A DNA stretch of 64,000 nucleotides, taken from Parapedobacter lycopersici. Its GTDB lineage: Bacteria > Bacteroidota > Bacteroidia > Sphingobacteriales > Sphingobacteriaceae. The notes under the pieces were generated by a model. That model was not told the origin of the DNA and made no database searches. It saw only the letters and a list, made by a program, of their open reading frames with translations. Of this stretch, positions 31,001-61,780 are shown one piece after another (position 1 is the first letter of the stretch; each line of letters opens with the position of its first letter). The DNA lies in NCBI RefSeq assembly GCF_024643285.1, contig NZ_JAMSLW010000005.1, positions 62,001-126,000 on the forward strand. The letters run 5' to 3'. Position numbers and translations under genes: made by a program.

Positions 31001-31437
31001 CTGGCAACGCGACCGTTAATGATAAATTCCTGTAATGGTGGCTGTTTTTCCGCTGCTTTGGCAGGCCGGTTGATTAACGTAATGATGATATTCTTATCGA
31101 CAATCTTATAGCTCAGCCCCTGTCCTGAAAGGCTTTTTTTCAGCGCTTCATCCAGTGTTACGTTGCGCACATCGATGGTAATGGGTTGCGCCCTGCGGAT
31201 CATGCCCACATCATAGAAAACGTGGTAACCGCTCTGCTTTTTAATGTCTGTTAATACATCCTCCAGTGAGGCGTGCTTTTTTCGAAGGCTAATATCCTGC
31301 GCATACATGTAAGAATATGCACTTACTTGTAAAGCACTGACCAATAGGAGTACGCAGGATAATTTCATGGCAAGGCTATACTTGGAAATCGCATGTATGA
31401 TATGGTGATAACCTTGTATAATAAATTTTTTATACAT
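28024..31437 (-). CDS. SusC-like TonB-dependent transporter with STN domain (unit 1)
   Basis: A 1137-residue outer-membrane receptor. After a signal region, residues of about 48-115 form an STN domain (SLEDVLTDIKKQSGYHVFYD, LDEALKKSLSGQGLSYKIVD), the part that passes ligand signals to a FecR protein. A carboxypeptidase-regulatory-like repeat follows (about 140-210), then the plug starting near GEVVVTALGISREKKSLSYA and VDGLSGKIAGL, and a long barrel ending GVSLNFGF. Together with SusD it imports oligosaccharides using TonB. It differs clearly from the three other SusC proteins in its head region. The predicted antisense RNA at 31447-31541 lies opposite its leader. Confidence 0.92.
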   Translation of the reverse strand: MYKKFIIQGYHHIIHAISKYSLAMKLSCVLLLVSALQVSAYSYMYAQDISLRKKHASLEDVLTDIKKQSGYHVFYDVGMIRRAQPITIDVRNVTLDEALKKSLSGQGLSYKIVDKNIIITLINRPAKAAEKQPPLQEFIINGRVASAAGNPLEGVTVRVKDTQVATTTDAAGNYRIELTQNRATLTFSLLGYSSVEQTGNAGTTLNVVLQESVSELGEVVVTALGISREKKSLSYATQSADAEKLSQARTPNLVDGLSGKIAGLTITSSGAGVGASSKVLLRGNRSISGSSQPLYVVDGITLNGDIANLSPDDIESISVLKGANAAALYGSRANNGAIIVTTKSGKGAPQGVSTNLGFNFMANTPIILMKFQNEYGQGANGIYSENAVTSWGPRFDGSPVKHWSNDPGYIANQLNGSETYPYAAQPDNIKDFFQTGRSFATNLSVNINSEKSNTFLSYTHTDATGIVDGNDLQSHNLSIRTTASLSDRLKLDSRVNYIRQQFDNVLFTGESFNNPMRYLYQIPRNIRTQDIQHYQFVNSAGQTRQHFYSPGFNGAGNPYWTQHNVLNPKLEERLLGMLSLHYQLTDDLSILGRSAIDRTNAAAETKLANDTYVTANRGSYARNNSNAYEWNTDALLNYHKALSPSFTLDLNVGANHRVFKSDALGASGVNFQIENLFALGNTQDPRPIDTYYRHKEVQSVYAFGELSYKNALFLNLTGRNDWSSTLPADNRSYFYPSVGLTAVISELATLPDAIDYLKLRGSYAEVGNDTDPYMLDRLATINKGTVSLNPTLPNADLKPESTRSTEIGLEATLLNNRLRFDVTYYKTNTFDQLFASPVPVGSGVASVFQNGADVQNSGVEMALGGTVISRDAFSWDINVNFSKNRSKILEIAEGFDVLNQADDYIRTYKLIKGEPFGAVYSRGYVRDGQGRVIVDANGLPKITTGKDVLVANYNPDWLSGISNTFRYKDFTLSALVDIRQGGSLISFTEAIESGIGVLDYTAQGRDGSLVFGENIFDEETAVTESGDPNTIQVSSEDLWNHLGGVGAPSGEAFVRDASNIRLRELIFGYTLPQRLLGKTFVKSARLSVVGRNLFFISNKAKYVDPEIMTDISNNSEGREALSLPTTRSFGVSLNFGF

Positions 31438-31440
31438 TTG
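31433..31440 (+). promoter_or_regulatory. -7 element of antisense RNA promoter, unit 1
   Basis: TACATTTG on the plus strand fits TAnnTTTG and contains the reverse complement of the susC start codon (31435-31437). No good -33 TTTG was found at the right distance, so this is the weakest of the four promoters. Confidence 0.45.
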
Positions 31441-31446
31441 AATTGG

Positions 31447-31541
31447 GTTTATAAAAATTGGTTTCCAAATCCGTTTTTTAATCCTAATGGCTTCATTGTC
31501 ATTTAATCAGGGGCGTTGCGACCGCTCCTGATTCTTTTTTT
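31447..31541 (+). ncRNA. Predicted cis-antisense RNA to the susC leader (unit 1)
   Basis: The start near 31447 is inferred from the -7 element at 31433-31440. The end is an intrinsic terminator with an 11-bp stem, AATCAGG(G)GCG with CGC(T)CCTGATT (31505-31515 with 31523-31533), then C and seven T to 31541. The RNA of about 95 nt would be complementary to the untranslated leader of susC. No gene on the plus strand could use this terminator otherwise. By analogy with DonS-type RNAs it would repress the transporter operon. Confidence 0.5.
31505..31541 (+). terminator. Plus-strand terminator between fecR and susC, unit 1
   Basis: 11-bp stem with one G-T pair, seven-base loop and a run of seven T on the plus strand. 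All neighbouring genes run the other way, so it must serve an antisense transcript. Confidence 0.75.
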
Positions 31542-31567
31542 GACAACAAAGCCAGCTGTTGCAGTCG

Positions 31568-32818
31568 CTATGTCATCACAATCACCCTCCTTCCTTCGAT
31601 TTTGAACTTCACTGTTCCCGTCAGCTCAATCGTTTTTAATAATTTTTCAAAGCTTTCAAACCTTGAAATGGTTCCGCCGAAACGCTTGTGCTTTACCGCC
31701 TCTTCTTCATACTCCACGTCTACGTCATACCACCGTGCGATTGTATTCATTACTTCAACCATGTCACTGTTATGAAAGGCAAAATTGCCGTTTTTCCATG
31801 CGATCGCATTTGCCGGGTCGACCGGGACCACTGAAATAAGGCGGCTCCCATGTTTTACGGTTGCCTGCTGATTCGGAGAAAGCACGTTAGCAACCGTTGT
31901 ATTGCTGCCTGCTTTTTGCGGGATGGAAACGCGGACCTTTCCTTCAAGCAGTGTGGTTTTGGTGGCGTTCTCCCCGGGATAAGCCTTGATGTTAAAATGG
32001 GTCCCCAAAACCTCAACCGCCTGGTCAACTGTCTTTACAATAAAAGGGAGCCGGCGGCCGCCCCTGGTAAAACCGCTGACTTCGAAGTAGGCTTCTCCCG
32101 TGAGTTCCACCTGCCGCTCATCACCCGTAAAACGGACCGGGTAACGCAGCGATGACATCGCGTTAAGCCATACCCTGCTGCCATCCGGCAACGCCAGCTG
32201 ATATTCTCCCCCTTTGGGTGTATTTACGGTATTGTACATGGCTTCCATATCACCCGTGACCGCGGTGATCGGCTCATAGAAAAGCTGCCCGTCTTCCGTC
32301 TTTACAATCCGGAAGCCGGCCTGTTCTGCGAGCGCGCCATCCCCTACTTCACCTAGGCTAATCGTGCGGCCGTCGGCCAAGGTGAGCATCGCTTTTTGAC
32401 CGCCCGGGTGAATCGCCGCCTCCATGTGTGTCTGTGCAGCCATTTCCCCCGACTGTTCATCGGTTCCAAACTCAACGTATGGGGCCAGCAGAAAAACAAT
32501 ACAAATCGAGGCGGCGATGCCGGCCACCGAATACCAATAGCGTTTAATCCGTAGGTTTTTCCGTGTGGCTTCCTGTTGTTCCCGATCTGCCAGGATCCGC
32601 GGATCGTTCAGTATCTTCCGGAAAACATGGTCGCTGCGGATCGGCAGGGGCTGGTCAACGTCCAGTTCCGTCCAAAGGTCATCTACAGCCTGGTATAAAT
32701 CCGTTTCATCCCCTTGTTTTGCAACGTAAGATTTCAGCTCCTGAAACTCATCGCTCCGTATGCGATTATTGACATACGCATGCAACAGGTATCGTAACCG
32801 TTCGTTGTTTATCTCCAT
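31568..32818 (-). CDS. FecR-family anti-sigma regulator (unit 1)
   Basis: A 416-residue protein. The N-terminal cytoplasmic part (about 1-85) would bind the sigma factor. A single membrane segment lies at about 92-115 (YWYSVAGIAASICIVFLLAP). The periplasmic FecR domain includes GGEYQLALPDGSRVWLNAMS and ELTGEAYFEVSG, and a C-terminal DUF4974-like region ends GTVKFKIEGRRVIVMT. The STN domain of the adjacent SusC is its expected partner. It follows sigma factor 1 by 100 bases. Confidence 0.9.
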   Translation of the reverse strand: MEINNERLRYLLHAYVNNRIRSDEFQELKSYVAKQGDETDLYQAVDDLWTELDVDQPLPIRSDHVFRKILNDPRILADREQQEATRKNLRIKRYWYSVAGIAASICIVFLLAPYVEFGTDEQSGEMAAQTHMEAAIHPGGQKAMLTLADGRTISLGEVGDGALAEQAGFRIVKTEDGQLFYEPITAVTGDMEAMYNTVNTPKGGEYQLALPDGSRVWLNAMSSLRYPVRFTGDERQVELTGEAYFEVSGFTRGGRRLPFIVKTVDQAVEVLGTHFNIKAYPGENATKTTLLEGKVRVSIPQKAGSNTTVANVLSPNQQATVKHGSRLISVVPVDPANAIAWKNGNFAFHNSDMVEVMNTIARWYDVDVEYEEEAVKHKRFGGTISRFESFEKLLKTIELTGTVKFKIEGRRVIVMT

Positions 32819-32918: not shown

Positions 32919-33506
32919 TCAGTAACTGATAAAAATCAGGAAATACAGGTAGGTGATGTTATTTTTTACAAAGTGTATTTTCAGGGCCTTTAACGCATTA
33001 ACCAGGTGATTTTTGACCGTGTTTCTGGAAATCTGCATGCGCTCGGCAATCTCATCATAGGACAAGCCTTCATTCCTGCTCAAAATGAAAACTGTCTGCT
33101 GTTGCTTGGGCAATTTTTTAATTGCCTCTTCGGTAAACCGATGCAGGTCTGCGGCGTTTACCATATGCTCTGTTTCATCGGACGATTCCGTCAGGTGGTT
33201 GGTTAGGTAGCGCTTCGCTTCGGCCTCGGTCATTTTTCTTCGGAAATGATCAATGGCCAGTCGCCGCGCGGTCAGGTAAACGTAGGGGTATAAGGGTTGT
33301 GAAGGGATCAGCTTGCTGCGGTTGAGCCACAGACTCACAAATGTTTCCTGCAGTAATTCCTCCGCCTGTTCATGGTCCTTGGCCAATAGAAACAGCATGT
33401 GGTAAATGCGCTTGTGCAACTGGTCATATACTGCACGGAATACAGCTTCGTCTCCTTCCTTTAAGTTGGCGACGACCTCGGCAGCTACTTCAATCTTTAA
33501 CGGCAT
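32919..33506 (-). CDS. ECF RNA polymerase sigma factor (unit 1)
   Basis: A 195-residue sigma-70 family protein. Region 2 reads LLAKDHEQAEELLQETFVSL and PYVYLTARRLAIDHFRRK; region 4 is LPKQQQTVFILSRNEGLSYD followed by IAERMQISRNTVKNHLVNAL. The protein ends with a short hydrophobic tail (ITYLYFLIFISY) after the helix-turn-helix. It is expected to direct transcription of the downstream susC operon when released by FecR. Its own promoter at 33558-33589 is of the housekeeping type. Confidence 0.92.
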   Translation of the reverse strand: MPLKIEVAAEVVANLKEGDEAVFRAVYDQLHKRIYHMLFLLAKDHEQAEELLQETFVSLWLNRSKLIPSQPLYPYVYLTARRLAIDHFRRKMTEAEAKRYLTNHLTESSDETEHMVNAADLHRFTEEAIKKLPKQQQTVFILSRNEGLSYDEIAERMQISRNTVKNHLVNALKALKIHFVKNNITYLYFLIFISY

Positions 33507-33557
33507 GACTTAGGGTTGCGAGCGCTTAAATTAGTTAGTTGTTATTATTGCGTGTAA

Positions 33558-42095: not shown

Positions 42096-45000
42096 TTAAA
42101 ACCGCACCTTTAAATCCAGTCCAAAACTCCGGACCGGAGGTACCCCCTGGTTTTCGAGCCCCTGTGAATCGCCGGCACTGCTGTAATTGGATTCGGGATC
42201 TACATTATCCATGGCGCTGTATAACAGCAGCAGATTCCGTGCAACCAGAGACAGGCTGGCCGCCTTGATCGGCGTTCTTGCGAGCAGCGACTGCGGGAGG
42301 GAATACCCGAAGGTGATTTGGCGAAGTTTTACGAAGCTCGCATCTGACACGAAGAAATCGGTTATCGAAAAGGCGACACCCTGGTAATATTCCTGAGCCG
42401 TAATTGTATGGTGATATGGATCGCCGTTTTGATCCACGCCATCCAGGGTTACACCACTTTCCCGCACACCGTTTTCCGCGGTTTGTTTATGCAACCCATA
42501 AAACGTTCCGTACGCATCGGTCGACACATACATCTTCGACCCGAACTTCCCGTCAATTAAAAAGCCCAGGGAGAAATTCTTAAAGGAAAAATCATTGGAT
42601 ATCCCCATGGTCAGCGGGGGCACGCCCCGGCCCAGGCTCATGAGCTCGCTTTGGATCGGCAGCCCGGTGTCTTTGTTATATACGAAATTTCCGTTCTCGT
42701 CCTGTTTTGGTTTGAATCCGGATACCATGCCATAAGGCATGCCTTCGTAATGATAGATATACGCATTTTGAGTCCGCGGCCGGGCACCGACTAAACTGGT
42801 TAACCCATCCGCAATCTTCACAACCGTGTTTTTATTATAGGCCATGTTATAGCTGATGTTCCAGTTAAATCCTTCGGGCGACTGGAAGGGACGGCCCGTT
42901 AGGAGGAGCTCAACACCCCGGTTCTGGATCTTGCCGATGTTAAGCCTGACATTGGTATACCCTGACGCCCGGGCTACTGATGCACTGACAATATCATTGG
43001 TTGTCGTACGGTCATATAACGTTACGTCCAGTCCGATCCGGTTATTAAACATCCAGGTTTCTATACCGGCTTCCGCTGTGGTCGATGTATAGGGCTGCAG
43101 TGCGTTGGGAATTGTATTTCCGCTGATGCTCATCAACTGCTGGCCGAAATGGGTAACCGAATTGGCGACATAACGAAGGTTTAAACCGTATGGATCGGGC
43201 GCGCCGCCGCCAACCTGCGCCCACGAGGTCCGCACTTTCGCAAAATTCAGCCAGGATGGTCGCGTAGACCAAGCGTCGGAAAGGAGGAAACTCAGTCCTA
43301 CCGATGGGTAGAACAGGCTGTTACTCTCCGGAGACAGGGTAGAGAACCAATCCCGCCTTCCGGTAAGGGTTAAATACAGGTAATTATTAAATCCGATATC
43401 GGCGGACGCGAATAACGAATTAATAGCGAATTCGCTAAAGCTCTTGGAAAATGTCTGGCTGGCGCCGTTACTGATAAAGTATTGAAACGGAACACTAAAC
43501 GGGCCGCTGGACAGGTCGACGGATGAAAGGTTATTATACATTTGATTGCCCCCGAAAATCGCATTGACCGAAAAAGCGCCAAAAGTACGTTCAAAGCCCA
43601 GCAGCAACTCGGCATTTGTCTCATACGTGGTATTTTTCCCTTCGGTCATCTGCCCACTTTCCCGATATAGAATTCCGGTTGGGGTGATGTTGTAATCCTC
43701 GATATTAAAATAGTCGATCCCTACCCTCGCCCGGGCATAGAGGAAATCAGTGAAGTTATAACGCGTGGTGAATGATCCGATAAACCGGCGACGTTCATCG
43801 CCATTCTTGATTTTGTTGACCGCAAAATAAGGGTTTACCACATAGGCATAATCATTCCAGGGAGTTTCATAGCCGTTTTCGTCGTAGCCGGGTGCCAGGG
43901 TACGCACGTCAATATTAGTTCCAACAAGACCAACCGATGCATTCGGATTATTGGTAAAATCGGCAATAAAGGTTCGGTTTTTAGCTTCTTCGATATTGTA
44001 TTGTGCATTTCCCTCGAAGAAAATCTTACCTCCCAGATTAGCGTTTGCGTTTAGGTTAAAGGTCTTGCGGTTGATCGCTGAATTAGGAACGATCCCGTCA
44101 TTGTTCATATCCGACATAGAGAAACGGAAATTTGCCTGCTCGCTTCCGCCGATCAGCGCCAGGGTATTTGTAAACGTGGTTCCAGTATTGTAAAAGTTCT
44201 TGATGTTATTTTTTTGGGGTAAGTAGGGTCTTTCAACGCCATCGGGCTGTACGACCATCGAACCATCCAGCCTGCCACCCCAGGAGGTCCTGCCGTTGGC
44301 AACAGCCTCGCCCTGTGTTGCGGGTTTCTGGCCCCGGGTCCCTGAACCGTATTCGTATTGCCAGTTGGCAAACGTCAGCGGTTCTTCCATGGTGTACGAA
44401 GAGTTAAACTCTACGCCCAAACCCTCCTGCGCCTTGCCCGATTTGGTGGTAATCAGGATGACCCCGTTGGCCGCCCGTGATCCATAAAGTGCTGCCGCTG
44501 TTCCTCCCTTCAGTATGGACATGCTTTCAATGTCATCCGGATTTATACTAAGCAACCCGTCTCCCATATCCCTGCCGCCATATGTACCGGCCGACCCCTG
44601 GTTGGCGTTGTTGATCGGCACACCGTTCACTACATATAACGGCTGGTTATCGCCGCTCAGCGACCCATTCCCCCGGATAAGCACCCGGCTGGATCCTGCT
44701 GGACCGGAGGCCGTGCTGGTGGCGTTTACCCCTGCAATGCGACCGGTTAACGCGTTTCCAAGATTAATCTCCCTGGCTTGGTTCAGGTCCTCACCACCCA
44801 GCTGCGTAACGGAATAACTCAGGGATTTCCGTTCGCGGGAAATACCCAGTGCCGTCACCACGACCTCACCCAGTTCGGCATCCTCCATCTCCAGCACCAC
44901 ATTGATTTTTGTGTTGCCTGTAAGCGCAATTTCGCGGGACTGATAACCTACATACGAAATGTGCAATGTCACATTTGTGCTGGGGACAGTTAATGAAAAT

Positions 45001-45530
45001 AGCCCTTCCGCATCGGTCAGCGTTCCCGCGCTGGCATTACCTTTTACATTAACCGAAGCCCCCTGTAATGGGCGTCCATCGGCATCCACTACGCTACCGG
45101 TAATGCGGACGTCCTGGATGGCGGGAAGCGGTTCCAGTTTCTTTTTCAGCAGCGGACCATTCGGCAACAGATTGACAATTACGGTACTTTCAATAATTTT
45201 GTAGGTCATGTGCTGTTTGTCCATGATCCGTCGGAGCACATCGCTTACTTCCGCGTTTTTCACCTCAATACTTACCGGCTGGGCCTTTTCGATTAGCTCG
45301 TCGCTATATAAAAACTCAATGGCCGTTTGTTTGGTGATTTCGGAGAAAAGCCGTTCTATCTTTTCATTTTTCAGGGAAAGCGTAACTTTTTGTGCTATGC
45401 CTTCGGCATGTACCGCGGTTACCAATACCAACAACATAAAAAAAGTGATTTTCATGGTCAGCATTATTTTTTGTAAAACCGAAAGGCAGGGGGTTGTTTT
45501 CGGTTCTTTGCCAAAAGAAAAGTAATTCAT
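42096..45530 (-). CDS. SusC-like TonB-dependent transporter with STN domain (unit 2)
   Basis: A 1144-residue receptor from ATG 45530 (MNYFSFGKEPKTTPCLSVLQ). A signal region is followed by an STN domain (LSLKNEKIERLFSEITKQTA, VSDVLRRIMDKQHMTYKIIE), a carboxypeptidase-regulatory-like repeat (ITGSVVDADGRPLQGASVNV), the plug starting at GEVVVTALGISRERKSLSYS, and the barrel ending SFGLDLKVRF. The first 200 or so bases are very similar to susC of unit 4, pointing to duplication. The ATG 14 codons upstream (45572) is rejected because all other SusC heads begin at MNYF. Confidence 0.92.
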   Translation of the reverse strand: MNYFSFGKEPKTTPCLSVLQKIMLTMKITFFMLLVLVTAVHAEGIAQKVTLSLKNEKIERLFSEITKQTAIEFLYSDELIEKAQPVSIEVKNAEVSDVLRRIMDKQHMTYKIIESTVIVNLLPNGPLLKKKLEPLPAIQDVRITGSVVDADGRPLQGASVNVKGNASAGTLTDAEGLFSLTVPSTNVTLHISYVGYQSREIALTGNTKINVVLEMEDAELGEVVVTALGISRERKSLSYSVTQLGGEDLNQAREINLGNALTGRIAGVNATSTASGPAGSSRVLIRGNGSLSGDNQPLYVVNGVPINNANQGSAGTYGGRDMGDGLLSINPDDIESMSILKGGTAAALYGSRAANGVILITTKSGKAQEGLGVEFNSSYTMEEPLTFANWQYEYGSGTRGQKPATQGEAVANGRTSWGGRLDGSMVVQPDGVERPYLPQKNNIKNFYNTGTTFTNTLALIGGSEQANFRFSMSDMNNDGIVPNSAINRKTFNLNANANLGGKIFFEGNAQYNIEEAKNRTFIADFTNNPNASVGLVGTNIDVRTLAPGYDENGYETPWNDYAYVVNPYFAVNKIKNGDERRRFIGSFTTRYNFTDFLYARARVGIDYFNIEDYNITPTGILYRESGQMTEGKNTTYETNAELLLGFERTFGAFSVNAIFGGNQMYNNLSSVDLSSGPFSVPFQYFISNGASQTFSKSFSEFAINSLFASADIGFNNYLYLTLTGRRDWFSTLSPESNSLFYPSVGLSFLLSDAWSTRPSWLNFAKVRTSWAQVGGGAPDPYGLNLRYVANSVTHFGQQLMSISGNTIPNALQPYTSTTAEAGIETWMFNNRIGLDVTLYDRTTTNDIVSASVARASGYTNVRLNIGKIQNRGVELLLTGRPFQSPEGFNWNISYNMAYNKNTVVKIADGLTSLVGARPRTQNAYIYHYEGMPYGMVSGFKPKQDENGNFVYNKDTGLPIQSELMSLGRGVPPLTMGISNDFSFKNFSLGFLIDGKFGSKMYVSTDAYGTFYGLHKQTAENGVRESGVTLDGVDQNGDPYHHTITAQEYYQGVAFSITDFFVSDASFVKLRQITFGYSLPQSLLARTPIKAASLSLVARNLLLLYSAMDNVDPESNYSSAGDSQGLENQGVPPVRSFGLDLKVRF

Positions 45531-45537
45531 ACTTTTG
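45507..45537 (+). promoter_or_regulatory. Promoter of antisense RNA, unit 2
   Basis: TTTG (45507-45510), 19 bases, TACTTTTG (45530-45537) on the plus strand. It is a full consensus match. The T at 45530 is the complement of the A of the susC start codon. Confidence 0.75.
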
Positions 45538-45543
45538 TAGAAT

Positions 45544-49352: not shown

Positions 49353-52300
49353 TTAGAATTTGATCATTAAATTGAGGCCAAATGTCCTGGTCCTCGGCAA
49401 GTTAATACCGCCTGTACCCTGTGCATTGGCTGTTGACTCCTGAAACTCCGGATCCAGGCCGGCTTCTTTCACACGCTTGTCGCGATAAAGAATCAGCAGG
49501 TTATTCGCCACTAAACCAATAGATGCCGACTGCAACGGCAAATTCAGCTTGTCTACCGGAATACTGTAGTTCAGCACTGCCCGACGCAGTTTAACGAAAT
49601 CCGTATTATATGTAAAGAGTGCCGAATAGCCCCGCCCAACCTGATTGTAGTAGGCCTGGATATTCTGCGGCTCCCACAGGTAATCAAATGGTGCTCCATT
49701 TTCGTCTACACCAGTCAATTGCAAGCCGTTGTCACGGCCCTCCAGCGTCATCGGCGCCAAGCCAAAGCGGGTCGCATAGAACATCAGGTTATTGTACCCA
49801 ACTGCACCGAATTTACCATCAAACAACACATTCAATGAAAAATTCTTGTAGCGGATGTTGTGGCTAAAACCAATGGTATGGGGCGGGTTACCTACGCCGT
49901 AGGCCACCTCTTCCCCTTCCGGGAAATGGCTAATGGAGTTGTAAATCGGCGTACCGTCTGCCGTATGTTTCGGCTGGATAACCATTACCGTTCCATAAGG
50001 CAGGCCCGGGCGGTTCACAATACGGGCACCCTGAATACCATTACCCAATGAAATTTCCGCCACCGTAGGCGCCAATTCTACAATTTTGCTCAAGTTATAC
50101 GAGTAGTTTAAGGTCATGTCCCAGCTAAAGGATCCGGAACGCACCGCTGTACCGTTTAACAATGCCTCAATCCCTTTATTGGTTACTTTACCAATGTTCA
50201 CGTTTCCTCCGGTAAACCCGCTTGCAGCAGTAATATTAACTCCCACAATGTCATTGCTGGTTACCTTGCTGTAATAGGTCAGATCAAGCCCAAGCCTATT
50301 GTTGAACAACCGCGTCTCAAAACCTGCTTCTGATGTAGTCACAGTCAGCGGCCGCAGATCAGGCGTTGGCAACCTGTCTGAAACAATCTGCGTAGGCAGG
50401 TTGTAGCCGTTATTTGTAGAGATGGTATACGTCTGGTTTACCTGTCCGGCATTAATCGTAGCACTACCCACCTGTGCCCAGGATCCCCGAAGTTTCAGGA
50501 AGCTGATGGCCGAAGGCATTTCAATCAGGTCAGAAAGCACCACTGAACTACCCACTGATGGATAAAAAATGGAGTTCGTTCCCGGGTTTAGCGTAGAGAA
50601 CCAATCATTCCGTCCGGTAAACGACAGGAACACCACGCCCCGCCAGTCAAAGTCGGCCGATGCAAACAACGAGTTCGTTCCCGTCCGCGTTTCCCGGTGG
50701 AACGGATTATTACCCGTAGCCGTCGTGGTAATCGTTTTCAGGTTTGTCAAGCTAATGAAGTTTGGAATAACAAAATCCCGACCGCTCAGGTTGTTCCGGA
50801 TAAACGCCGCCCGTTCCATATTTGCGCCCGCCATTGCACTCACATTAAAATCACTCAGGAAAGAGGTATTGTAGTTAATGGTTCCCTGAATGTTCGTAAT
50901 CTGCTCCGTACCGTTACTGGTATTCATGGCACCAAACGGTGTTGAATTCTTTCCAATCGGCACATAGTCCATCCGCTCATACGATTGGAAGTCGCGCTGT
51001 GCCTTACCCAACAGGAACAAATTCGGACTCAGGTTCATCTGGATACTGGCCGAAGCAATGTACCTTCTCGTTTTATCAGCGTTTCCCATCCGGTTCACGA
51101 TAAAATACGGGTTTGGTGCCTCCGGAGCCGGGTTCCAGGCTAATTCTTTTCCGGTTTCAGGATCGTATCCAGGGGCCAGATTGCGAATATCCACCGTATT
51201 GCCTACCAGGTAAATCGGCCAGGCCGCGTTCATTTCAGCATAACCCACCGTTGGACGGTTCTTGCCCTTTACCAGGTTATATTGCACATCCGAACGGATC
51301 ACGAAAAGATCATTTTTACCCAGTTTGGTCATCATCGACAAGTTTGCCGTTTGGCGCCCATATGTAGAATTCGGCTGCATACTGTTCGAGCGTAAGTCGG
51401 ATAATGACAACCGCCCCGTAAACTTCTCTGTGCCGGCGTTAAACGCGATCGTATTCGTAATATCCGAACTTGGCCGATAAAAATTCTTAATGTTTTCCTT
51501 CACCGAAACCGGTGCATAAGGGTGCATTTTGCCATCAACCTGCATGTATTGAATGGAAGGATCTACTTTTGGGCCATAAGAGAGCCGCCCGGAAGCCTGT
51601 GCTTCAGCAACCGTTGTAGGCACCGTGCCATTCTGCCCCTGTCCGTACTGATTCTGGAAATTAGGAAACTCACTTGGTACCCCCATGGTAGCAACCGAGT
51701 TAAACTCAATACCCAATCCCTGCTGAGCCTTACCCGATTTAGTAGTAATCAGGATCACCCCGTTTGCCGCCTGGCTGCCGTACAGTGCTGCTGCCGCACC
51801 ACCCTTCAATACCGAGATCGACTCAATGTCATCCGGGTTGATCATCGATATCCCGTCACCGCGGTCGATATTGAGTCCGGTTGTATTTTGGCTGGCCCCG
51901 TTATTACTATTGTTGATGGGCAAACCATTTACCACATACAGGGGCTGTTGGTTTGGGTTCGATCCGCTCAACGAGTTGTTGCCCCGGATCACCACCCGGC
52001 TGGAACCACCCGGGCCAGAGTTAATCTGCGTAGCATCCACCCCCGCAATCTTACCCGTCAATGCGCTTGCAATGTTATTGTCGCGGGCCTGTGTAAAACT
52101 TTCACCCTGCACCTGGGTCACGGAGTAGCTCAGCGATCGGCGCTCACGGGTAATACCGAGTGCCGTAACAACCACCTCACCCAGCTCTGACGCATCGCTG
52201 GCCAACACAACGGCCAACGTTCCGCCCTGCCCCACGGGCACCTCCTTCGAAATATATCCGATATAGGACACGATTAACACCGCATTTCTGTCGCGGACGT

Positions 52301-52835
52301 TGATCCCGAAACGGCCTTCATTATCCGTAGTGGTACTGCCGCCGCCACCCCTGATGTTGACAGAGGCCCCCTGCAGCGGGGTGCCCACGGAATCGGTAAC
52401 CACACCGGTAATCCGGATATCCTGCTGCAATACCAGCGGCGGAGCCGGTCTTTCCGGCGATTCGGGAATGAGATCAACCGACACGGTCCCTGCGATCACT
52501 TTATACCGCAGCCTGCGGTTTGCCAGTGCGTCGCGGAGTACCTTTTCCGCGTCCCTGTTGTTAACCCGGATGGTTACCGGTGCCGTCCGCTTCGCAACGT
52601 CGTCGCTATACACAAAACGGTAATTGGTCTGTTTGCTGATCTCCTCAAAGAATCGTTCGATTTTTGCGTCTTCCAGCGTAATTGTCACCTTTTGGGCCGC
52701 TACATTGGCTTGGGCAGCGGTGGTCAGTACGAGCAGCAAAAAGGGGATGGTTTTTATCGTTTTTACCCAAAAACGGGTTTCGGCCGGAAGACGGGGAGTC
52801 CGCTTCGGCCTTTTGCCAAATAAAAAGTAATTCAT
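49353..52835 (-). CDS. SusC-like TonB-dependent transporter with STN domain (unit 3)
   Basis: A 1160-residue receptor starting MNYFLFGKRPKRTPRLPAET. Signal region, STN domain (ITLEDAKIERFFEEISKQTN, AEKVLRDALANRRLRYKVIA), carboxypeptidase-regulatory-like repeat (ITGVVTDSVGTPLQGASVNI), plug (GEVVVTALGITRERRSLSYS) and barrel ending TFGLNLMIKF. The head resembles units 2 and 4 in protein sequence but is more diverged in DNA. With SusD3 it should import an unknown ligand and signal through FecR3. Confidence 0.92.
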   Translation of the reverse strand: MNYFLFGKRPKRTPRLPAETRFWVKTIKTIPFLLLVLTTAAQANVAAQKVTITLEDAKIERFFEEISKQTNYRFVYSDDVAKRTAPVTIRVNNRDAEKVLRDALANRRLRYKVIAGTVSVDLIPESPERPAPPLVLQQDIRITGVVTDSVGTPLQGASVNIRGGGGSTTTDNEGRFGINVRDRNAVLIVSYIGYISKEVPVGQGGTLAVVLASDASELGEVVVTALGITRERRSLSYSVTQVQGESFTQARDNNIASALTGKIAGVDATQINSGPGGSSRVVIRGNNSLSGSNPNQQPLYVVNGLPINNSNNGASQNTTGLNIDRGDGISMINPDDIESISVLKGGAAAALYGSQAANGVILITTKSGKAQQGLGIEFNSVATMGVPSEFPNFQNQYGQGQNGTVPTTVAEAQASGRLSYGPKVDPSIQYMQVDGKMHPYAPVSVKENIKNFYRPSSDITNTIAFNAGTEKFTGRLSLSDLRSNSMQPNSTYGRQTANLSMMTKLGKNDLFVIRSDVQYNLVKGKNRPTVGYAEMNAAWPIYLVGNTVDIRNLAPGYDPETGKELAWNPAPEAPNPYFIVNRMGNADKTRRYIASASIQMNLSPNLFLLGKAQRDFQSYERMDYVPIGKNSTPFGAMNTSNGTEQITNIQGTINYNTSFLSDFNVSAMAGANMERAAFIRNNLSGRDFVIPNFISLTNLKTITTTATGNNPFHRETRTGTNSLFASADFDWRGVVFLSFTGRNDWFSTLNPGTNSIFYPSVGSSVVLSDLIEMPSAISFLKLRGSWAQVGSATINAGQVNQTYTISTNNGYNLPTQIVSDRLPTPDLRPLTVTTSEAGFETRLFNNRLGLDLTYYSKVTSNDIVGVNITAASGFTGGNVNIGKVTNKGIEALLNGTAVRSGSFSWDMTLNYSYNLSKIVELAPTVAEISLGNGIQGARIVNRPGLPYGTVMVIQPKHTADGTPIYNSISHFPEGEEVAYGVGNPPHTIGFSHNIRYKNFSLNVLFDGKFGAVGYNNLMFYATRFGLAPMTLEGRDNGLQLTGVDENGAPFDYLWEPQNIQAYYNQVGRGYSALFTYNTDFVKLRRAVLNYSIPVDKLNLPLQSASIGLVANNLLILYRDKRVKEAGLDPEFQESTANAQGTGGINLPRTRTFGLNLMIKF

Positions 52836-52842
52836 ACTTTTA
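52812..52842 (+). promoter_or_regulatory. Promoter of antisense RNA, unit 3
   Basis: TTTG (52812-52815), 19 bases, TACTTTTA (52835-52842); the final G of the -7 consensus is A here. Geometry relative to the susC start codon is identical to units 2 and 4. Confidence 0.6.
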
Positions 52843-52848
52843 CTGAAT

Positions 52849-52930
52849 TAAGGTTAATTGAATGAGTTAATACAACGTGTTGAAACACTTAGCCTTAGTA
52901 CACGGGGGTGCTGCGAACACCCCCGCTTTT
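52849..52930 (+). ncRNA. Predicted cis-antisense RNA to the susC leader (unit 3)
   Basis: A transcript of about 82 nt is predicted from the promoter at 52812-52842 to the terminator at 52903-52930. The body contains TTAGCCTTA (52889-52897), shared with units 2 and 4. It lies opposite the susC3 leader from about 14 to 95 nt before the start codon. Function is inferred as for the other copies. Confidence 0.6.
52903..52930 (+). terminator. Plus-strand terminator between fecR and susC, unit 3
   Basis: CGGGGGTG pairs perfectly with CACCCCCG (8 bp) around seven bases, followed by C and four T. The G-T pair seen in units 2 and 4 is G-C here, so pairing is kept. Confidence 0.75.
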
Positions 52931-52999
52931 ATTTCTTTCAGGGGGGATAAAATGGTCTCATCATTGGCATTGGTTAGTTTGTGGTTCTATTGTTAGTTG

Positions 53000-54169
53000 T
53001 TAAAATTGTACAGTCACTTTCCGCTCTTCGATTTTGAATGTAGCCCGTGTGGCAAAACCCAATATATCAAGCACTTCTGATAAGTTGACATCCCGGCTGA
53101 TGTTACCGTTGTATCCTTTGTGGTAAGGGACATCGCCCACATATACCACGGAGAGGTCATACCAGCGTGCCAACTGTTGCATAATGTCGACAATCCCGTC
53201 GCTCCTGAAATAAAAATCCCCGTTTTTCCAGGCAATCGCTTTTCTCATATCGGCTGGTTCCACCACAATGTCCCCCGTCACCCGTGCCTGCTGGCCCGGT
53301 TTCAGCAATTCGGATTTTTCGGCGTGTATCACTTTCACTGACCCTTCTACAACAGTTGTTGTAACCGCGTTATAGGAATTGATATTGAAATGCGTGCCCA
53401 ATACCTCCACTACTGTGCCGTTCGCTTCCACCTTAAATGGCCGGCTGGCATCCGGCGCCACTTCAAAATATGCCTCGCCTTTCAGAAACACCTTGCGGTC
53501 CGTGTTTCCGAACCGGGTCGGGAATCGTAGTTCAGACATGGCATTCAGCCAAACACTGGTGCCGTCGGACAGCGTGAGGTTATACATCCCCGCCTTGGGA
53601 ACACGCAACTCATTATACAGCAACTCCATGGATGCTGTTTCATCCGGCTGCTGCCGGTTCACATACGTCAGCTCGCCGGTTGCGGTTGTGATGGTTGTAC
53701 CGTCGCGCTCTTTTACAGCGTTTGCACCGGCCGCTAAATCAATGGTACGCCCATCCGACAGCTTCAATACCGCTTGCTGGCTGCCGGGCATCACATCGTT
53801 TCCCGTAACATTGGCCGTTGCCACTTCCGGGGCGTCCGTTTTCGGCGTTGTGCCATACCACCATCCTCCGACTACGGCCAAAAAAACGACTGCGGCTACC
53901 GCAATGCCCAAGCGCCGGAGCGCATGGCCAGTCCCGGTCTCCTTTTCCGGACGCCGGGCGATCTTCTCCCAGGCTTGTTCCATATCAAGGCGGGCAAAAA
54001 AATCCATATCGATCCGGGCTTGCGTATCACTCTGGATCGCTTCAAACGCCGCCCTGTTTTCCTCGTTTGCTGCAATCCACTGTTCCAATACCTCCTCTTC
54101 CTGTACAGTAAGGGTACCGGTTAGGTGTTTATTGATTAGGTCGGCAATATGGTACGGATTACTGCTCAT
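53000..54169 (-). CDS. FecR-family anti-sigma regulator (unit 3)
   Basis: A 389-residue protein, MSSNPYHIADLINKHLTGTL. The membrane segment is LGIAVAAVVFLAVVGGWWYG, the periplasmic FecR domain has AGMYNLTLSDGTSVWLNAMS and FLKGEAYFEVAPD, and the C-terminal domain ends TFKIEERKVTVQF. It stands 55 bases after sigma factor 3 and is expected to be its membrane anchor and inhibitor, relieved by SusC3. Confidence 0.9.
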   Translation of the reverse strand: MSSNPYHIADLINKHLTGTLTVQEEEVLEQWIAANEENRAAFEAIQSDTQARIDMDFFARLDMEQAWEKIARRPEKETGTGHALRRLGIAVAAVVFLAVVGGWWYGTTPKTDAPEVATANVTGNDVMPGSQQAVLKLSDGRTIDLAAGANAVKERDGTTITTATGELTYVNRQQPDETASMELLYNELRVPKAGMYNLTLSDGTSVWLNAMSELRFPTRFGNTDRKVFLKGEAYFEVAPDASRPFKVEANGTVVEVLGTHFNINSYNAVTTTVVEGSVKVIHAEKSELLKPGQQARVTGDIVVEPADMRKAIAWKNGDFYFRSDGIVDIMQQLARWYDLSVVYVGDVPYHKGYNGNISRDVNLSEVLDILGFATRATFKIEERKVTVQF

Positions 54170-54224: not shown

Positions 54225-54776
54225 TTAAGCAACCCCGAATTTAATGAAACACAGCAGGACAGCCCCCAGCAATTCCGGACCGATCCTACCTTTCAACAGT
54301 TTGAGACCCCGTTGTTTTTGCGTCTTAACCGTATTGATGCTTACTTGCAATTTCTCTGCAATTTTCGCATTGCTCCAGCCTTCCAGGTATCCCAGGCGAA
54401 AAATCCGCTGGCACCCCTTTGGCATTGCGGTAATTACCATATATACCTCATTCATTACCTCCGAGCGGATCATTTTGTTAATCACGGTCGATTCCTCTTC
54501 CATGACCTGGGGGTTAAGCCGGAAGTATCGTTCTTCGATTTTAGCGTCCCTCCCCACATTGTGGCAGGCATTTCGTATGGATGTATACAGGTAACTTTTT
54601 ATGGCAGCATCCTTATCTGCCACCATATGCCGGCGCTCGAGGAATGCAGCAAATGCATCCTGCACAATATCCTCAGCCATCACCTCATCCCCCAACAGCT
54701 GCCAGGCGAAATGACATAACCGGGCGTAATACTTCCGGAATAATTTGTCTGCCGAGAATAGGTAAACTTCTTTCAT
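54225..54776 (-). CDS. ECF RNA polymerase sigma factor (unit 3)
   Basis: A 183-residue sigma factor. Region 2: GDEVMAEDIVQDAFAAFLER and IKSYLYTSIRNACHNVGRD; region 4: MPKGCQRIFRLGYLEGWSNA with IAEKLQVSINTVKTQKQRGL. A hydrophobic end (ELLGAVLLCFIKFGVA) follows. No clear housekeeping promoter was seen upstream; a hairpin at 54865-54885 lies about 90 bases before the start. It should activate the susCD3 operon. Confidence 0.92.
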   Translation of the reverse strand: MKEVYLFSADKLFRKYYARLCHFAWQLLGDEVMAEDIVQDAFAAFLERRHMVADKDAAIKSYLYTSIRNACHNVGRDAKIEERYFRLNPQVMEEESTVINKMIRSEVMNEVYMVITAMPKGCQRIFRLGYLEGWSNAKIAEKLQVSINTVKTQKQRGLKLLKGRIGPELLGAVLLCFIKFGVA

Positions 54777-58230: not shown

Positions 58231-61200
58231 TCAAAACTTCACATTCAGGTTGAACCCGACACTCCGGGTCAGCGGCAAGCTTGACCAGCCGGATCCGGCG
58301 CTGTTGCCCCCATAGTCGTAAAGTTCTTCCGGGTCCATATTCTCCGTCCATTTTTTCAGTACGGCAACATTATTGGCTACCACGTTCAGCCGGATTCCTT
58401 TCACGAAAAATGTGCTCGGCAGGTACCTGGTGAAGTCATAGCCCAGGCTCACCTGCCGGAGTTTCCAGAAGCCGGCATTGTAGATGAAGGGTTCATAAAT
58501 ATTCTGTGAAGTGATGGATTCGTAATACGGCTGTACCTCGGCCTGCGTCTCATTGACGCCTCCGTCCGGATTCACGCCGTTGCCGACAACATAACCCACA
58601 TCACGGCCCGGCAGGGTTCCTTTGTGCAGCCCGTGCCGCCAGTAGTTGCGGTTAGATCCGCCGCTGATGATGTAGTTTTTGCCCAGCTTGAAATCGATCA
58701 GCGCCGAAAGGCTGACCCCTTTATAATTGAACATGTTGGTGATGCCACCGAAGAACGACGGCTGGTTGGTACCTACGTTAACCATCTCGGCTGTCCGCAG
58801 CGGAAAGCCGCTGTTTTCATCGAAAATCTGCCGTCCCTGTTCATCCCGCAGGTACATGTATTCGTAGATCTGGCCCATGGGCATGCCCACTACCTGCCGG
58901 ATCCCGCCGACGGTAATCATGTCGTCCTCGTCGGTAAGCCCCAGCTGCAATACCTTGGATGTATTATAAGATAAGTTGGCATTGATGTCCCACGTAAATG
59001 AGCCGGTCCGTACCGGAGTCACATTTACGGCCGTTTCCACCCCGCGGTTCATGCTTCTTCCGACATTGATCAGCTGCGCCGTATAGCCGGTGGTATTGGA
59101 TATCTGGGCCGAAACAATCTGGTCGCGCGATATTTTGTGGTAATAAGCCACGTCCAGGCCCAGGATATTATTGAATAACCGCAGTTCCAGACCGACTTCC
59201 ATTTCGGAAACCCGCAGCGGGCGCAACAGTCCGTTCGGAATGGTATTGGTATTGATTCCGCCAACCGGAATCATGCTGCCCTGCGGATTCGGAAACAGGT
59301 TATTGTTGACCTGGTAATACAGCGCGTTGGAATACGGATCTACGTTATCATCACCTACTTCAGCATAGGCCAGCCGCAGTTTACCGAAGGTCAGCCACTC
59401 GGGCATACCATCCAATGCATCCGTGAATACGAAACTACCCGTTGCGGACGGGTACAGGATACTGCGGCTGCCCGGCGCGAGGGTAGAGAACCAATCGTTG
59501 CGGGCTGTTACGTTCAGGAAAAGATAATCCCGGAAAGATACTTCCGCGGCACCGTAAAGCGAGTTCACCTTCCGTTCACTGACGCTGTAATCCGAGCTTT
59601 TTACCCGTCCGTTCATGATGGTATACAAACCGCGTTCAATAAAATCCTGCACCGATTGGTTTTCCTGATCGAAGCGCCGGTACATCTGGTTGCCGCCCAG
59701 GGTAATGTCGACCCCGAAGTCACCGAATTTACGGTTGGCCCCGAGCAGAAAATCGTAGTTCCGCTCGCGGAACCTCCGGTTGTTCTTAAAATAGGAACCG
59801 TTTACAAATCCCGCAGGCGCCGGACCAATGGCCGCATAGCCGGTTGGGTAGTTAAAATCCTGGTTCCGCACGTAAAAGTCCTGTGCAATGCGCCCCTGCA
59901 GATACAGCCAATCGGTAAAATTATATTTCAGCTGGATGTTCCCGATGAACCGGTCGCGTTTGATGTTCTCGAACTTTTCATACACGGAAAAATAGGGATT
60001 GGTCCGCGGCAGGAACCGCGCGTATACGATTTCGTTCCCTGCAGCATCCTTCCGGTACTGGTTCAGCAGGTCGAGTGGCATGGTGTTGGCCAGCGTTAAT
60101 ACGGAACTCGGGGTAGAGAACTCCTGTCCGCCTACCTGTGCCGGATTCCGGTTATATTCGTTGGAGTAATTTACATTGCCCTGTACGGTCAGTTTTTTGA
60201 AGATGGTCTGCGTAAAACCCAGGTTTACGGTCCGGCGGTTAAAATCGGAGTTGGGCACAATACTCTTGTTATCGGTATTGGAAAGCGACAGGTTAAAACC
60301 GCCGTTTTCACCGCCATTGGAAAGCGCCAGTGAATTGGTGATGTTCTGGCCGGTATCGTAAAACTTCCGGATACGGTCGCGGACAGGCTCATAAGGCACT
60401 TCCACGCCATCGAAGAGCACCTGCGTCATCCCGGGTTCTATTTTCTCCCCGAAGCTCCAGATGCCTGAAGTGGGAAAAGGCTCCGTAGGCCGGACACCAC
60501 GTTCGCCCTGCCCATACTCATACTGAAAATCGGTAAAATCCAGTGGCGTGTCCATGGTATAGTTCACGTTATACGTTATGCCGATACCGCGCCCTTCGCC
60601 TTTGAGCTTGGTGGTGATCATGACGACCCCGTCTTTTGCCCTGGAGCCGTACAGTGCCGCCGCCGCCGCACCCTTCAATACGGTCATCGACTCGATATCG
60701 TCGGCATTGATACTGGAAAAACCATCACCGCCATCCGAGTTATTCAGCCCCTGGCCTCCGAACCGGCTATTGTCGATCGGTACGCCATTAACCACAATCA
60801 GTGGCGTGTTGGTGCCTGTAAATGATGAATTGCCGCGTATCCGGATCCGTGTGGAGCCCTGCGGGCCGGTACCCAGGGTAGTGATGTTCACCCCGCTGAC
60901 CTTTCCCTGCAACGCACCCATCGTCGTATTCGTGCGGTTTTCGGTCAGCTGCTCATGAGCTACCTGTACCGTGGAGTACCCCAGGCTCTTGGCTGACCGC
61001 TCAATCCCCAGCGCCGTAACCACTACCTCGCCAAGCGACTGCGCGTCTTCCGCAAGGGTAATGTTAAGTGTCGTCCGGCCGTTGACCGCCACATCCTGGG
61101 AAAGGTGGCCGATGAACGAGAATACCAGGGTACCCTGCGGGGGTACGGTTAGCAAAAACCGCCCCTGCGCATCGGTCGTGGTGCCGCGCTGCGTGCCGCG

Positions 61201-61683
61201 GAGGTTAACGGTTGCTCCCTGCAACGGCGTGCCGTCCGGACCGGTTACCGTGCCTGTCACCTGGATATCTTCCTGCAGGACCGGCAGTGGTGCCGACCGG
61301 GCGCTGACCGGCTGTGCCTTTACATTAACGGTCACGGTGCCTTCAATCACGCGGTAGGTCATGTTCTGCCGGGCAATCACTTCCCGCAGCACATCGTTGA
61401 CATCGGCATTGCGCACCTGGATGCTTACCGGCTGTGCTTTCTGCAATACCTCATTACTGTACAAGAACTGAATGTTCGTTTGTTTGGTAATTTCGGAGAA
61501 AAGCCGTTCTATTTTTTCATTTTTCAGGGAAAGCGTGACCTTCTGTGCCATACCCTCGGCATGTACACCAGTCACCAATACCAACAGCATAAAAAAAGTT
61601 ATTTTCATGGTTAGCATTATTTTTTGTAAAACCGAAAGACGAGGGTCCCCCTTCGGCCTTTTGCCAAAAGAAAAGTAATTCAT
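58231..61683 (-). CDS. SusC-like TonB-dependent transporter with STN domain (unit 4)
   Basis: A 1150-residue receptor starting MNYFSFGKRPKGDPRLSVLQ. STN domain (LSLKNEKIERLFSEITKQTN, VNDVLREVIARQNMTYRVIE), carboxypeptidase-regulatory-like repeat (VTGTVTGPDGTPLQGATVNL), plug (GEVVVTALGIERSAKSLGYS) and a barrel ending SVGFNLNVKF. The head is nearly the same as in unit 2 while the plug and barrel differ, so ligands probably differ. It would pass a signal to FecR4. Confidence 0.92.
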   Translation of the reverse strand: MNYFSFGKRPKGDPRLSVLQKIMLTMKITFFMLLVLVTGVHAEGMAQKVTLSLKNEKIERLFSEITKQTNIQFLYSNEVLQKAQPVSIQVRNADVNDVLREVIARQNMTYRVIEGTVTVNVKAQPVSARSAPLPVLQEDIQVTGTVTGPDGTPLQGATVNLRGTQRGTTTDAQGRFLLTVPPQGTLVFSFIGHLSQDVAVNGRTTLNITLAEDAQSLGEVVVTALGIERSAKSLGYSTVQVAHEQLTENRTNTTMGALQGKVSGVNITTLGTGPQGSTRIRIRGNSSFTGTNTPLIVVNGVPIDNSRFGGQGLNNSDGGDGFSSINADDIESMTVLKGAAAAALYGSRAKDGVVMITTKLKGEGRGIGITYNVNYTMDTPLDFTDFQYEYGQGERGVRPTEPFPTSGIWSFGEKIEPGMTQVLFDGVEVPYEPVRDRIRKFYDTGQNITNSLALSNGGENGGFNLSLSNTDNKSIVPNSDFNRRTVNLGFTQTIFKKLTVQGNVNYSNEYNRNPAQVGGQEFSTPSSVLTLANTMPLDLLNQYRKDAAGNEIVYARFLPRTNPYFSVYEKFENIKRDRFIGNIQLKYNFTDWLYLQGRIAQDFYVRNQDFNYPTGYAAIGPAPAGFVNGSYFKNNRRFRERNYDFLLGANRKFGDFGVDITLGGNQMYRRFDQENQSVQDFIERGLYTIMNGRVKSSDYSVSERKVNSLYGAAEVSFRDYLFLNVTARNDWFSTLAPGSRSILYPSATGSFVFTDALDGMPEWLTFGKLRLAYAEVGDDNVDPYSNALYYQVNNNLFPNPQGSMIPVGGINTNTIPNGLLRPLRVSEMEVGLELRLFNNILGLDVAYYHKISRDQIVSAQISNTTGYTAQLINVGRSMNRGVETAVNVTPVRTGSFTWDINANLSYNTSKVLQLGLTDEDDMITVGGIRQVVGMPMGQIYEYMYLRDEQGRQIFDENSGFPLRTAEMVNVGTNQPSFFGGITNMFNYKGVSLSALIDFKLGKNYIISGGSNRNYWRHGLHKGTLPGRDVGYVVGNGVNPDGGVNETQAEVQPYYESITSQNIYEPFIYNAGFWKLRQVSLGYDFTRYLPSTFFVKGIRLNVVANNVAVLKKWTENMDPEELYDYGGNSAGSGWSSLPLTRSVGFNLNVKF

Positions 61684-61690
61684 ACTTTTG
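61660..61690 (+). promoter_or_regulatory. Promoter of antisense RNA, unit 4
   Basis: TTTG (61660-61663), 19 bases, TACTTTTG (61683-61690) on the plus strand. Full consensus match, starting on the susC start codon as in unit 2. Confidence 0.75.
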
Positions 61691-61696
61691 TGGAAA

Positions 61697-61780
61697 TTAA
61701 GGTTAATTAATAGTTTGTTGTCAACACGATTATTGGGTTAGCCTTAACCATCGGGGGTGCCACTAACACTCCCGTTTTTT
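61697..61780 (+). ncRNA. Predicted cis-antisense RNA to the susC leader (unit 4)
   Basis: A transcript of about 84 nt runs from the promoter at 61660-61690 to the terminator at 61752-61780. It contains GGTTA-GCCT-TAACC (61736-61749), the same small inverted repeat as in unit 2. It would pair with the susC4 leader. Function is inferred by analogy with DonS-type RNAs. Confidence 0.65.
61752..61780 (+). terminator. Plus-strand terminator between fecR and susC, unit 4
   Basis: CGGGGGTG pairs with CACTCCCG (one G-T pair) around seven bases, followed by six T. No plus-strand gene is near. Confidence 0.8.

Follow-up and report, generated by a model that had tools for sequence, protein, structure and literature searches.

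Putative cis-antisense RNA genes locked to the start codons of fecR-linked susC genes in Parapedobacter lycopersici

The window analysed here is a stretch of 64,000 nucleotides of the Parapedobacter lycopersici genome (contig NZ_JAMSLW010000005.1, positions 62,001 to 126,000) and contains four units in which the genes for an extracytoplasmic function (ECF)-type sigma factor and for FecR lie directly upstream of susC. Each of these four fecR-linked susC genes probably carries a DonS-type cis-antisense small-RNA gene, its expression and its repressive effect being predicted from the DNA. The putative promoter lies on the susC start codon itself and reads back across the susC leader to an intrinsic terminator in the fecR-susC gap. 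Promoter box and terminator recur together far more often than expected by chance in the fecR-susC gaps of this genome and of its relatives.

RESULTS

Promoter boxes and terminators in the window

A preliminary description of the window had proposed a plus-strand intrinsic terminator between fecR and susC in every unit with a -7 element ahead of it, and both are present in all four units. Each terminator stem (plus strand, 31505-31533, 45597-45618, 52903-52925 and 61752-61774) has a T-rich tail on the plus strand, and ahead of each stands a TAnnTTT(G/A) box whose end lies 59-64 bases from the stem. In all four units this box covers the susC start codon, a point absent from the earlier description (Table 1). 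The RNA was predicted to run from 5 nt past the end of the box to the end of the T-tract, the box position in F. psychrophilum being given as -12 to -5 in excerpts of PMC9723704. The RNAs so delimited are antisense to the susC leader, as had been supposed, and their predicted lengths, formerly 81-95 nt, are corrected to 97, 83, 86 and 86 nt.

Two further points of the description were kept in part. The TTTG that it placed exactly 19 bases upstream of the box in units 2 to 4 is there, but it is the complement of homologous susC codons, thus the three cases are not independent evidence; unit 1 has no TTTG at spacer 19, only CTTG at spacer 16. The four copies had also been called paralogous, and this holds for units 2 to 4. 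When the unit 2 leader was used as a BLAST query the recognisable paralogues were units 2-4 only (86% and 74% identity). The unit 1 leader gave no match to it; the hairpin theme described below is nevertheless common to unit 1.

Terminators in fecR-susC gaps of the genome and of the phylum

The genome to which the window belongs has 3.6 Mb in 22 contigs, and its nearest named SusC proteins are those of Pedobacter. Its 48 SusC proteins were split according to whether fecR lies directly upstream (22 with, 26 without). Among the 22 fecR-linked genes an antisense terminator was found 51-97 nt ahead of the start in 14; a fifteenth is gained at locus L068 if a later ATG is the start, and a sixteenth lies at 144 (L035). 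TAnnTTTG at offset -1, -5 or 0 of the start was present in 13 of the 22, unit 3 with its TTTA being uncounted. Among the 26 genes without fecR, both elements occur at L031, a box at L046 and L063, and at L033 a terminator that is weaker and lies at 144. Leaving out L045 and L063, which lie at the ends of their stretches, here and in later counts, the strict count of antisense terminators is 16/22 with fecR versus 2/24 without (Fisher 1e-5). Dinucleotide shuffles of the 22 gaps led to an expectation of 0.3 terminators and 0.00 box-terminator pairs; 16 and 13 were observed. The proposal that four side-by-side copies form a standard module is retained as regards the association with ECF/FecR-type susC genes. 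The four as a special cluster are ruled out by this survey, being ordinary members of a genome-wide set.

The wider survey used fecR (FecR_C) loci of the genus, the family, a phylum sample and 12 named genomes, one of them without a match; the loci are mostly the best-scoring matches and are a non-random draw. Those taken were, for example, 34 of 405 matches from eight genus mates, 22 of 40 from Pedobacter westerhofensis, 19 of 29 from Sphingobacterium sp. N143, 23 of 57 from Chitinophaga rhizophila, 13 of 61 from Chitinophaga sp. CB10, 19 of 56 from Dyadobacter beijingensis, 6 of 34 from Rhodocytophaga, 8 of 12 from Zobellia russellii and 8 of 12 from a Prolixibacteraceae metagenome-assembled genome (MAG). 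A susC-like open reading frame (ORF) came next at 213 of the 226 loci (13 dropped), and 194 gaps remained after those shorter than 30 nt (n=19) were dropped.

An antisense terminator was found in 101 of these 194 gaps, where dinucleotide shuffles lead one to expect 2.7. Conservation of the promoter-terminator pair in relatives, on which the preliminary description had staked its case, was borne out, the strict pair being kept in 68 of the 194 with about 0.1 expected. By group, the terminator is present in 16/22 gaps of the own genome, 19/32 of the genus, 13/16 of the same family, 11/19 of Pedobacter, 6/15 of Sphingobacterium, 7/14 of C. rhizophila, 5/13 of CB10, 13/17 of Dyadobacter, 4/8 of Zobellia, 5/8 of Prolixibacteraceae, 1/1 of Hymenobacter and 1/5 of group f10. 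The link to fecR was also seen at named loci found via SusC alone (77 of 80 used), with a terminator in 17 of 28 with fecR versus 3 of 49 without; own and named genes without fecR taken together have one in 5 of 73.

Terminators on the sense strand were found in just 8 of the 194 gaps, and sense-strand attenuation as a general rule was ruled out on this count, group f12 being exceptional (3/9). Four f12 loci (L142, L143, L151 and L153) have an antisense hairpin of different sequence in the fecR-susC gap, missed by the strict finder, and a TACATTTA box was seen in their start context.

A model of the hairpin

A hairpin model, R1, was made from 58 aligned hairpins, which have the common theme CCGGnAGTGnT..CACTTCCGG. 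Both sides vary in each of the 11 pairs; this covariation is given little weight because the sequences were pre-selected by the hairpin finder. On the plus strand of the window R1 matched the four known sites and nothing else at E<=10, four further matches being the identical hairpins on the minus strand. In the whole genome at E<=1 it gave 17 distinct sites, 15 opposite susC leaders and two elsewhere (C18:277967 and C1:789416). This genome had supplied twelve of the training hairpins. Eleven of the 15 leader sites are training hairpins, that of L002 being unrecovered; of the six sites not used in training four are at susC leaders. Two matches (G000:C22:9083-9127 and G000:C16:101084-101128) oppose susC genes without fecR directly upstream, which suggests that the antisense unit can also occur away from fecR.

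When 198 genomes of the phylum were searched, 48 had a match at E<=0.005, and 71 matches lay outside the own genome. Among these, 29 loci were examined and 14 were antisense between fecR and susC. The first 14 of the examined loci by E-value included 12 in the fecR-susC gap, 10 of which were neither training sequences nor near twins; L387 is a training sequence and L394 its near twin. TAnnTTT(G/A) stood at offset -1 in 9 of the 14 fecR-susC loci (G in 6, A in 3). The susC starts assigned at L386 and L395 lie implausibly close to the hairpin (-3 and +37) and may be wrong.

Promoter geometry

Of the 101 terminator-bearing gaps, 37 have TAnnTTTG starting at offset -1 from the susC start, 18 at -5 and 7 at 0, so that one of three exact offsets is used in 62; no other offset occurs more than three times. 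The same three offsets are occupied in 26 of the 93 gaps without a terminator, in 1 of 51 named susC genes without fecR and in 2 of 24 such genes of the own genome. Box and terminator co-occur (Fisher 3e-6). At offset -5 the receptor begins Met-Tyr. Given three registers to the start, the box rather than the start context appears to be the conserved thing. Among 61 de-duplicated TAnnTTTG promoters 7 have TTTG at spacer 19, units 2 and 4 included, and 11 have TTG there; for the other spacers from 8 to 35 the counts are 0-2 and 0-5.

These figures bear on whether the hairpins are mere insulating terminators that protect fecR against stray antisense transcription from susC, with no dedicated promoter and no functional RNA. 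Excerpts of PMC9723704 do report pervasive antisense transcription in a flavobacterium, and call the study's own antisense list a starting point, and 39 of the 101 terminator gaps have no TAnnTTTG at the three offsets. Such insulators would not explain a box pinned to exact offsets or the TTTG peak at spacer 19. Nor would they explain the hairpin theme, which R1 at E<=10 did not detect in two further strong terminators found in the window (minus strand, 47729-47703 and 55193-55160). Mere insulation is rather unlikely.

A mini-ORF in the sense leader

De-duplicated gaps offering 50 nt or more from the fecR stop to the hairpin numbered 54, and 50 of these contain a complete sense-strand mini-ORF that starts 20-80 nt ahead of the hairpin, versus a mean of 25.6 and a highest value of 35 in 300 shuffles. 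TATG occurs between fecR stop and hairpin in 30 of the 54 (shuffle mean 8.8, highest 19) and GCCTATG in 9 of 56 gaps versus 0.1 expected. The k-mers enriched ahead of the hairpin (GCCTATG, TATGA) look like mini-ORF starts, though part of the signal may be promoter; no sense ECF promoter was identified. The nearest mini-ORF stop lies 10-45 nt ahead of the hairpin in 41 of 56 (shuffle mean 16.7, highest 26), and Pro is found in the last two residues of 12 of 39 peptides of at least 3 amino acids versus 3.0 of 24.2 in shuffles. At susC genes without fecR there is no excess of TATG (21/73 versus 25 expected) and little of the mini-ORF (48 versus 41). Among fecR-linked gaps without a detected terminator 28 of 31 have the mini-ORF versus 17 expected, so that the mini-ORF follows fecR rather than the antisense RNA alone.

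Peptides of the MxYF subfamily are MKRIYPSPT, MSEFYHYPK, MRQTYHYPK, MMRPFYPP, MKDSNYHPT, MNHFYPP, MKHYYPP and MRNHYP. Tyr and Pro near the peptide end, with synonymous codon changes, were found in 8 of 10 aligned leaders (L431-L440), three of them ending YPP-stop; L432 and L433 are without a Tyr/Pro mini-ORF. Where the gap is short and the end of fecR lies near the hairpin, as in unit 1, a Shine-Dalgarno-like GGAGG, made up of AGG Arg codons, occurs in the last 12 fecR codons at 24 of 45 loci; the corresponding counts are 5 of 56 for long-gap loci and 12 of 112 where no terminator is present. At 17 of the 45 it precedes an ATG, which is separated from a stop by up to three codons. At these short-gap fecR ends AGG makes up 95 of 203 Arg codons, versus 83 of 724 in the preceding codons.

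The strand of the hairpin

The strand was examined with a hairpin finder that scores G.T and A.C wobbles alike. Read antisense, the 42 strong hairpins from the own family (15 from the own genome, 15 from the genus, 12 from other genera) contain 36 G.U versus 6 A.C (binomial 3e-6), and the T-rich tail is on the antisense side in 38 and on the sense side in one. Five strong hairpins of other families have the T-tail on the antisense side in all five. Four strong hairpins at own susC genes without fecR have 1 G.U and 4 A.C, with the T-tail antisense in one. In the own family the antisense strand is favoured by the side of the T-tract and by the asymmetry of G.U and A.C.

The opposite assignment, in which the hairpin is an element of the susC mRNA leader and the antisense T-tract a by-product of a sense A-tract, has some points for it. 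The sense strand also folds (unit 3, -17.1 kcal/mol sense versus -15.0 antisense), the sense mini-ORF lies just upstream of the hairpin, and there is no G.U excess in the five strong hairpins of other families. The wobble counts of the own family argue against it, as does the greater stability of the antisense hairpin in 89 of 101 gaps, a figure biased by the finder, and a sense leader element is unlikely. Start-codon contexts in Bacteroidota are A-rich, and the TAnnTTTG box might be a by-product of this in well translated genes, but its rarity at susC genes without fecR, a control itself made up of susC genes, and its three registers to the ATG, one giving Met-Tyr as first codons, make this very improbable.

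Loci of Bacteroidales

In a tblastn search of PLSDB the unit 2 FecR matched 291 plasmid records, and 20 loci (L411-L430) were taken among the 40 matches listed, from Bacteroides finegoldii, Parabacteroides distasonis and Phocaeicola massiliensis; a susC start was located in 17 (not L421, L424 or L429). The finder gave an antisense terminator in 4 of the 17 (L418, L420, L423 and L425). R1 gave an antisense match in the gap in 4 (L425, E 3e-6; L427, 0.028; L428, 0.061; L419, 0.096) and three other matches, two of them elsewhere at E 0.7-0.8. By finder or R1, 7 of the 17 fecR-susC loci have an antisense terminator. TAnnTTTG lies on an ATG in 7 of 17, on the annotated start in L418, L419, L420 and L430 and, by eye, on another in-frame ATG in L422, L427 and L428. 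Neither terminator nor box was found in 8 of 17 (L411-L417 and L426), the gaps of L411, L412, L413 and L414 being 35-62 nt. The PLSDB 'plasmids' behind L411-L430 (B. finegoldii, P. distasonis and P. massiliensis TSDC17.2-1.1), many per strain and one with gpmA, resemble pieces of chromosome that were submitted as plasmids.

Other features of the window and of the predicted RNAs

The positions of the features are collected in Table 1. The identities of the ECF-type sigma factor, FecR and SusC were confirmed for all four units, and control of susC by the sigma factor is predicted. The SusD-sized ORFs of the four units had no NCBIfam name at E<=0.001.

Table 1. Positions of genes and predicted elements in the window
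Unit	Feature	Positions	Strand	Remarks
1	ECF-type sigma factor	32919..33506	-	
2	ECF-type sigma factor	46989..47606	-	
3	ECF-type sigma factor	54225..54776	-	
4	ECF-type sigma factor	63116..63715	-	
1	fecR	31568..32818	-	
2	fecR	45695..46894	-	
3	fecR	53000..54169	-	
4	fecR	61866..63053	-	
1	susC	28024..31437	-	
2	susC	42096..45530	-	
3	susC	49353..52835	-	
4	susC	58231..61683	-	
1	intrinsic terminator	31505..31541	+	R1 38.8 bits, match 31499-31544
2	intrinsic terminator	45597..45624	+	R1 30.7 bits
3	intrinsic terminator	52903..52932	+	R1 34.2 bits
4	intrinsic terminator	61752..61780	+	R1 25.8 bits
1	antisense -7 box TACATTTG	31433..31440	+	overlaps susC start codon (ATG 31437, minus strand)
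2	antisense -7 box TACTTTTG	45530..45537	+	on susC ATG (45530, minus strand)
3	antisense -7 box TACTTTTA	52835..52842	+	on susC ATG (52835, minus strand)
4	antisense -7 box TACTTTTG	61683..61690	+	on susC ATG (61683, minus strand)
2	antisense -33 TTTG, spacer 19	45507..45510	+	sequence
3	antisense -33 TTTG, spacer 19	52812..52815	+	sequence
4	antisense -33 TTTG, spacer 19	61660..61663	+	sequence
1	predicted antisense RNA, 97 nt	31445..31541	+	box end + 5 to T-tract end
2	predicted antisense RNA, 83 nt	45542..45624	+	box end + 5 to T-tract end
3	predicted antisense RNA, 86 nt	52847..52932	+	box end + 5 to T-tract end
4	predicted antisense RNA, 86 nt	61695..61780	+	box end + 5 to T-tract end
2	leader mini-ORF MKRIYPSPT*	45639..45668	-	
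3	leader mini-ORF MMRPFYPP*	52938..52964	-	
4	leader mini-ORF MSEFYHYPK*	61807..61836	-	
1	fecR 3' end, AAGGAGG, 9 nt, ATG-ACA-TAG	31568..31592	-	Shine-Dalgarno-like, mini-ORF in frame with fecR stop

The predicted RNAs of units 2-4 (45542-45624, 52847-52932 and 61695-61780) would fold into two hairpins, a 5' hairpin in which AAGGUUAA is paired with UUAGCCUU and the terminator; the fold of unit 1 is different. Cross-pairing energies among units 2-4 are -73 to -102 kcal/mol versus -146 to -162 for the own leader, shuffled pairings having a mean of -28 and a lowest value of -44.5 kcal/mol. Pairing across these three units is energetically possible, so that cross-talk may occur. An inverted repeat, AAAAGTA(T)..(A)TACTTTT, spans the susC start codon and -7 box at 45530, 52835 and 61683 and is perfect, by eye, in 8 of the 10 aligned leaders L431-L440. 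It is possibly a regulator site, or a by-product of the box and of Tyr-Phe codons. Over the window no Rfam 15 match reached a gathering score; below threshold there were three, all at unit 2 (E 0.77-3). A sigma-70 TTGACA/TATAAT scan was set aside, this consensus being unsuited to the phylum.

DISCUSSION

A possible mechanism

If the elements act as their positions suggest, a housekeeping sigma-A-type promoter (TTTG-N19-TAnnTTTG) with its -7 box on the susC start codon would drive an antisense RNA of about 83-97 nt, running back through the susC leader to the intrinsic terminator. This RNA would pair perfectly with the leader, roughly from -12 to -100, and the duplex would lower susC output by blocking ribosome access, by exposure to RNase, or both. 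Since the antisense promoter lies inside the gene that it would repress, heavy ECF-driven transcription of susC should pass over it and silence the antisense RNA, so that the two transcripts would exclude each other. The outcome would be a threshold switch in which leaky susC expression is suppressed and full induction escapes. A ribosome translating the mini-ORF would end translation shortly before the antisense terminator sequence, and the mini-ORF may hold it near the pairing site.

A more elaborate proposal, which we regard as doubtful though worth stating, is that fecR and susC are separated by a composite RNA switch found across families of the phylum. It would consist of the mini-ORF, on which the ribosome would terminate shortly ahead of the hairpin, the antisense RNA, with its 3' terminator hairpin as the matching landing site, and the start-codon-locked promoter with its mutually exclusive transcription. 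While a ribosome stayed on the mini-ORF, the antisense RNA would be kept off the leader, and the state of translation would thereby be coupled to ECF-driven uptake. In one subfamily the Tyr/Pro-rich end of the mini-ORF would make slow termination likely.

Several observations weigh against the presence of DonS-type antisense RNA genes at these loci. No terminator was detected in 93 of the 194 sampled gaps, with 19 further gaps under 30 nt. The strict finder gave none in f12 (0/9), Mucilaginibacter (0/5), Rhodocytophaga (0/4) or f31 (0/2), nor in f11, f17, f19 and a Bacteroidales MAG (0/1 each). The unit 3 box is non-consensus (TAnnTTTA; units 1, 2 and 4 have TAnnTTTG). R1 was built from hairpins selected by the finder, so its covariation is partly built in, and 15 of the 29 phylum loci examined with it are at no susC. 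The five strong hairpins of other families, four of them near-identical f12 sequences, contain 0 G.U and 4 A.C. Excerpts of PMC10994844 state that antisense RNAs of polysaccharide utilisation loci (PULs) in B. theta sometimes correlate positively with their own susC.

The DonS-type reading is nevertheless preferred. The anatomy shared by 101 of the 194 gaps predicts the 5' end, the 3' end, the bases that could be mutated without changing the protein, and the genes concerned. It also suggests that an antisense brake often accompanies the control of nutrient uptake by ECF/anti-sigma pairs in Bacteroidota.

Comparison with known systems

Three things are apparently new: a promoter locked to the start codon, occurrence outside Bacteroides and a mini-ORF in the sense-strand leader before the hairpin. 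No report of a susC antisense RNA outside Bacteroides, of such a promoter or of a susC leader mini-ORF was found, a weak negative since most of the subscription literature lay outside the search.

Ribosome-stalling leader peptides (TnaC-like) precede regulated genes. The leaders described here resemble them in having a short ORF, often with Pro near its stop, upstream of a hairpin. They differ in that their hairpin forms a terminator in the antisense direction, terminators on the sense strand being few.

DonS and the PUL cis-antisense RNAs of B. fragilis and B. thetaiotaomicron were reportedly described by Cao et al. 2016, which is known here from citing papers, and are treated by Ryan et al. 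2020 and 2024. According to excerpts of PMC7366714, DonS represents a family of 78-128 nt, divergent to susC, and the sigma-ABfr promoter has TAnnTTTG with TTTG near -33. Excerpts of PMC11697453 state that host-glycan PULs are typically under ECF/anti-sigma control and that the mechanism of repression by DonS is unknown. Antisense RNAs at 15 B. fragilis PULs are mentioned in part of PMC9723704, and 32 PUL antisense RNAs in B. theta, with mixed correlations with susC, in part of PMC10994844.

The parallel with DonS drawn in the preliminary description is upheld by the antisense, divergent position, by the linkage to ECF/FecR as against susC genes without fecR, and by the conservation of box and terminator in relatives. 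The RNAs predicted in the four units are antisense and divergent to the susC 5' end, are linked to a susC unit with ECF sigma and anti-sigma factors, and have lengths, with both ends predicted, within the 78-128 nt range. Their promoter motif is of the sigma-ABfr type, TAnnTTTG/A, with TTTG-N19 in units 2-4. They differ from DonS in that their host is outside the Bacteroidales, and the start-codon-locked promoter and the leader mini-ORF are features described here for the class found in the window, the comparison with DonS being made with published descriptions only.

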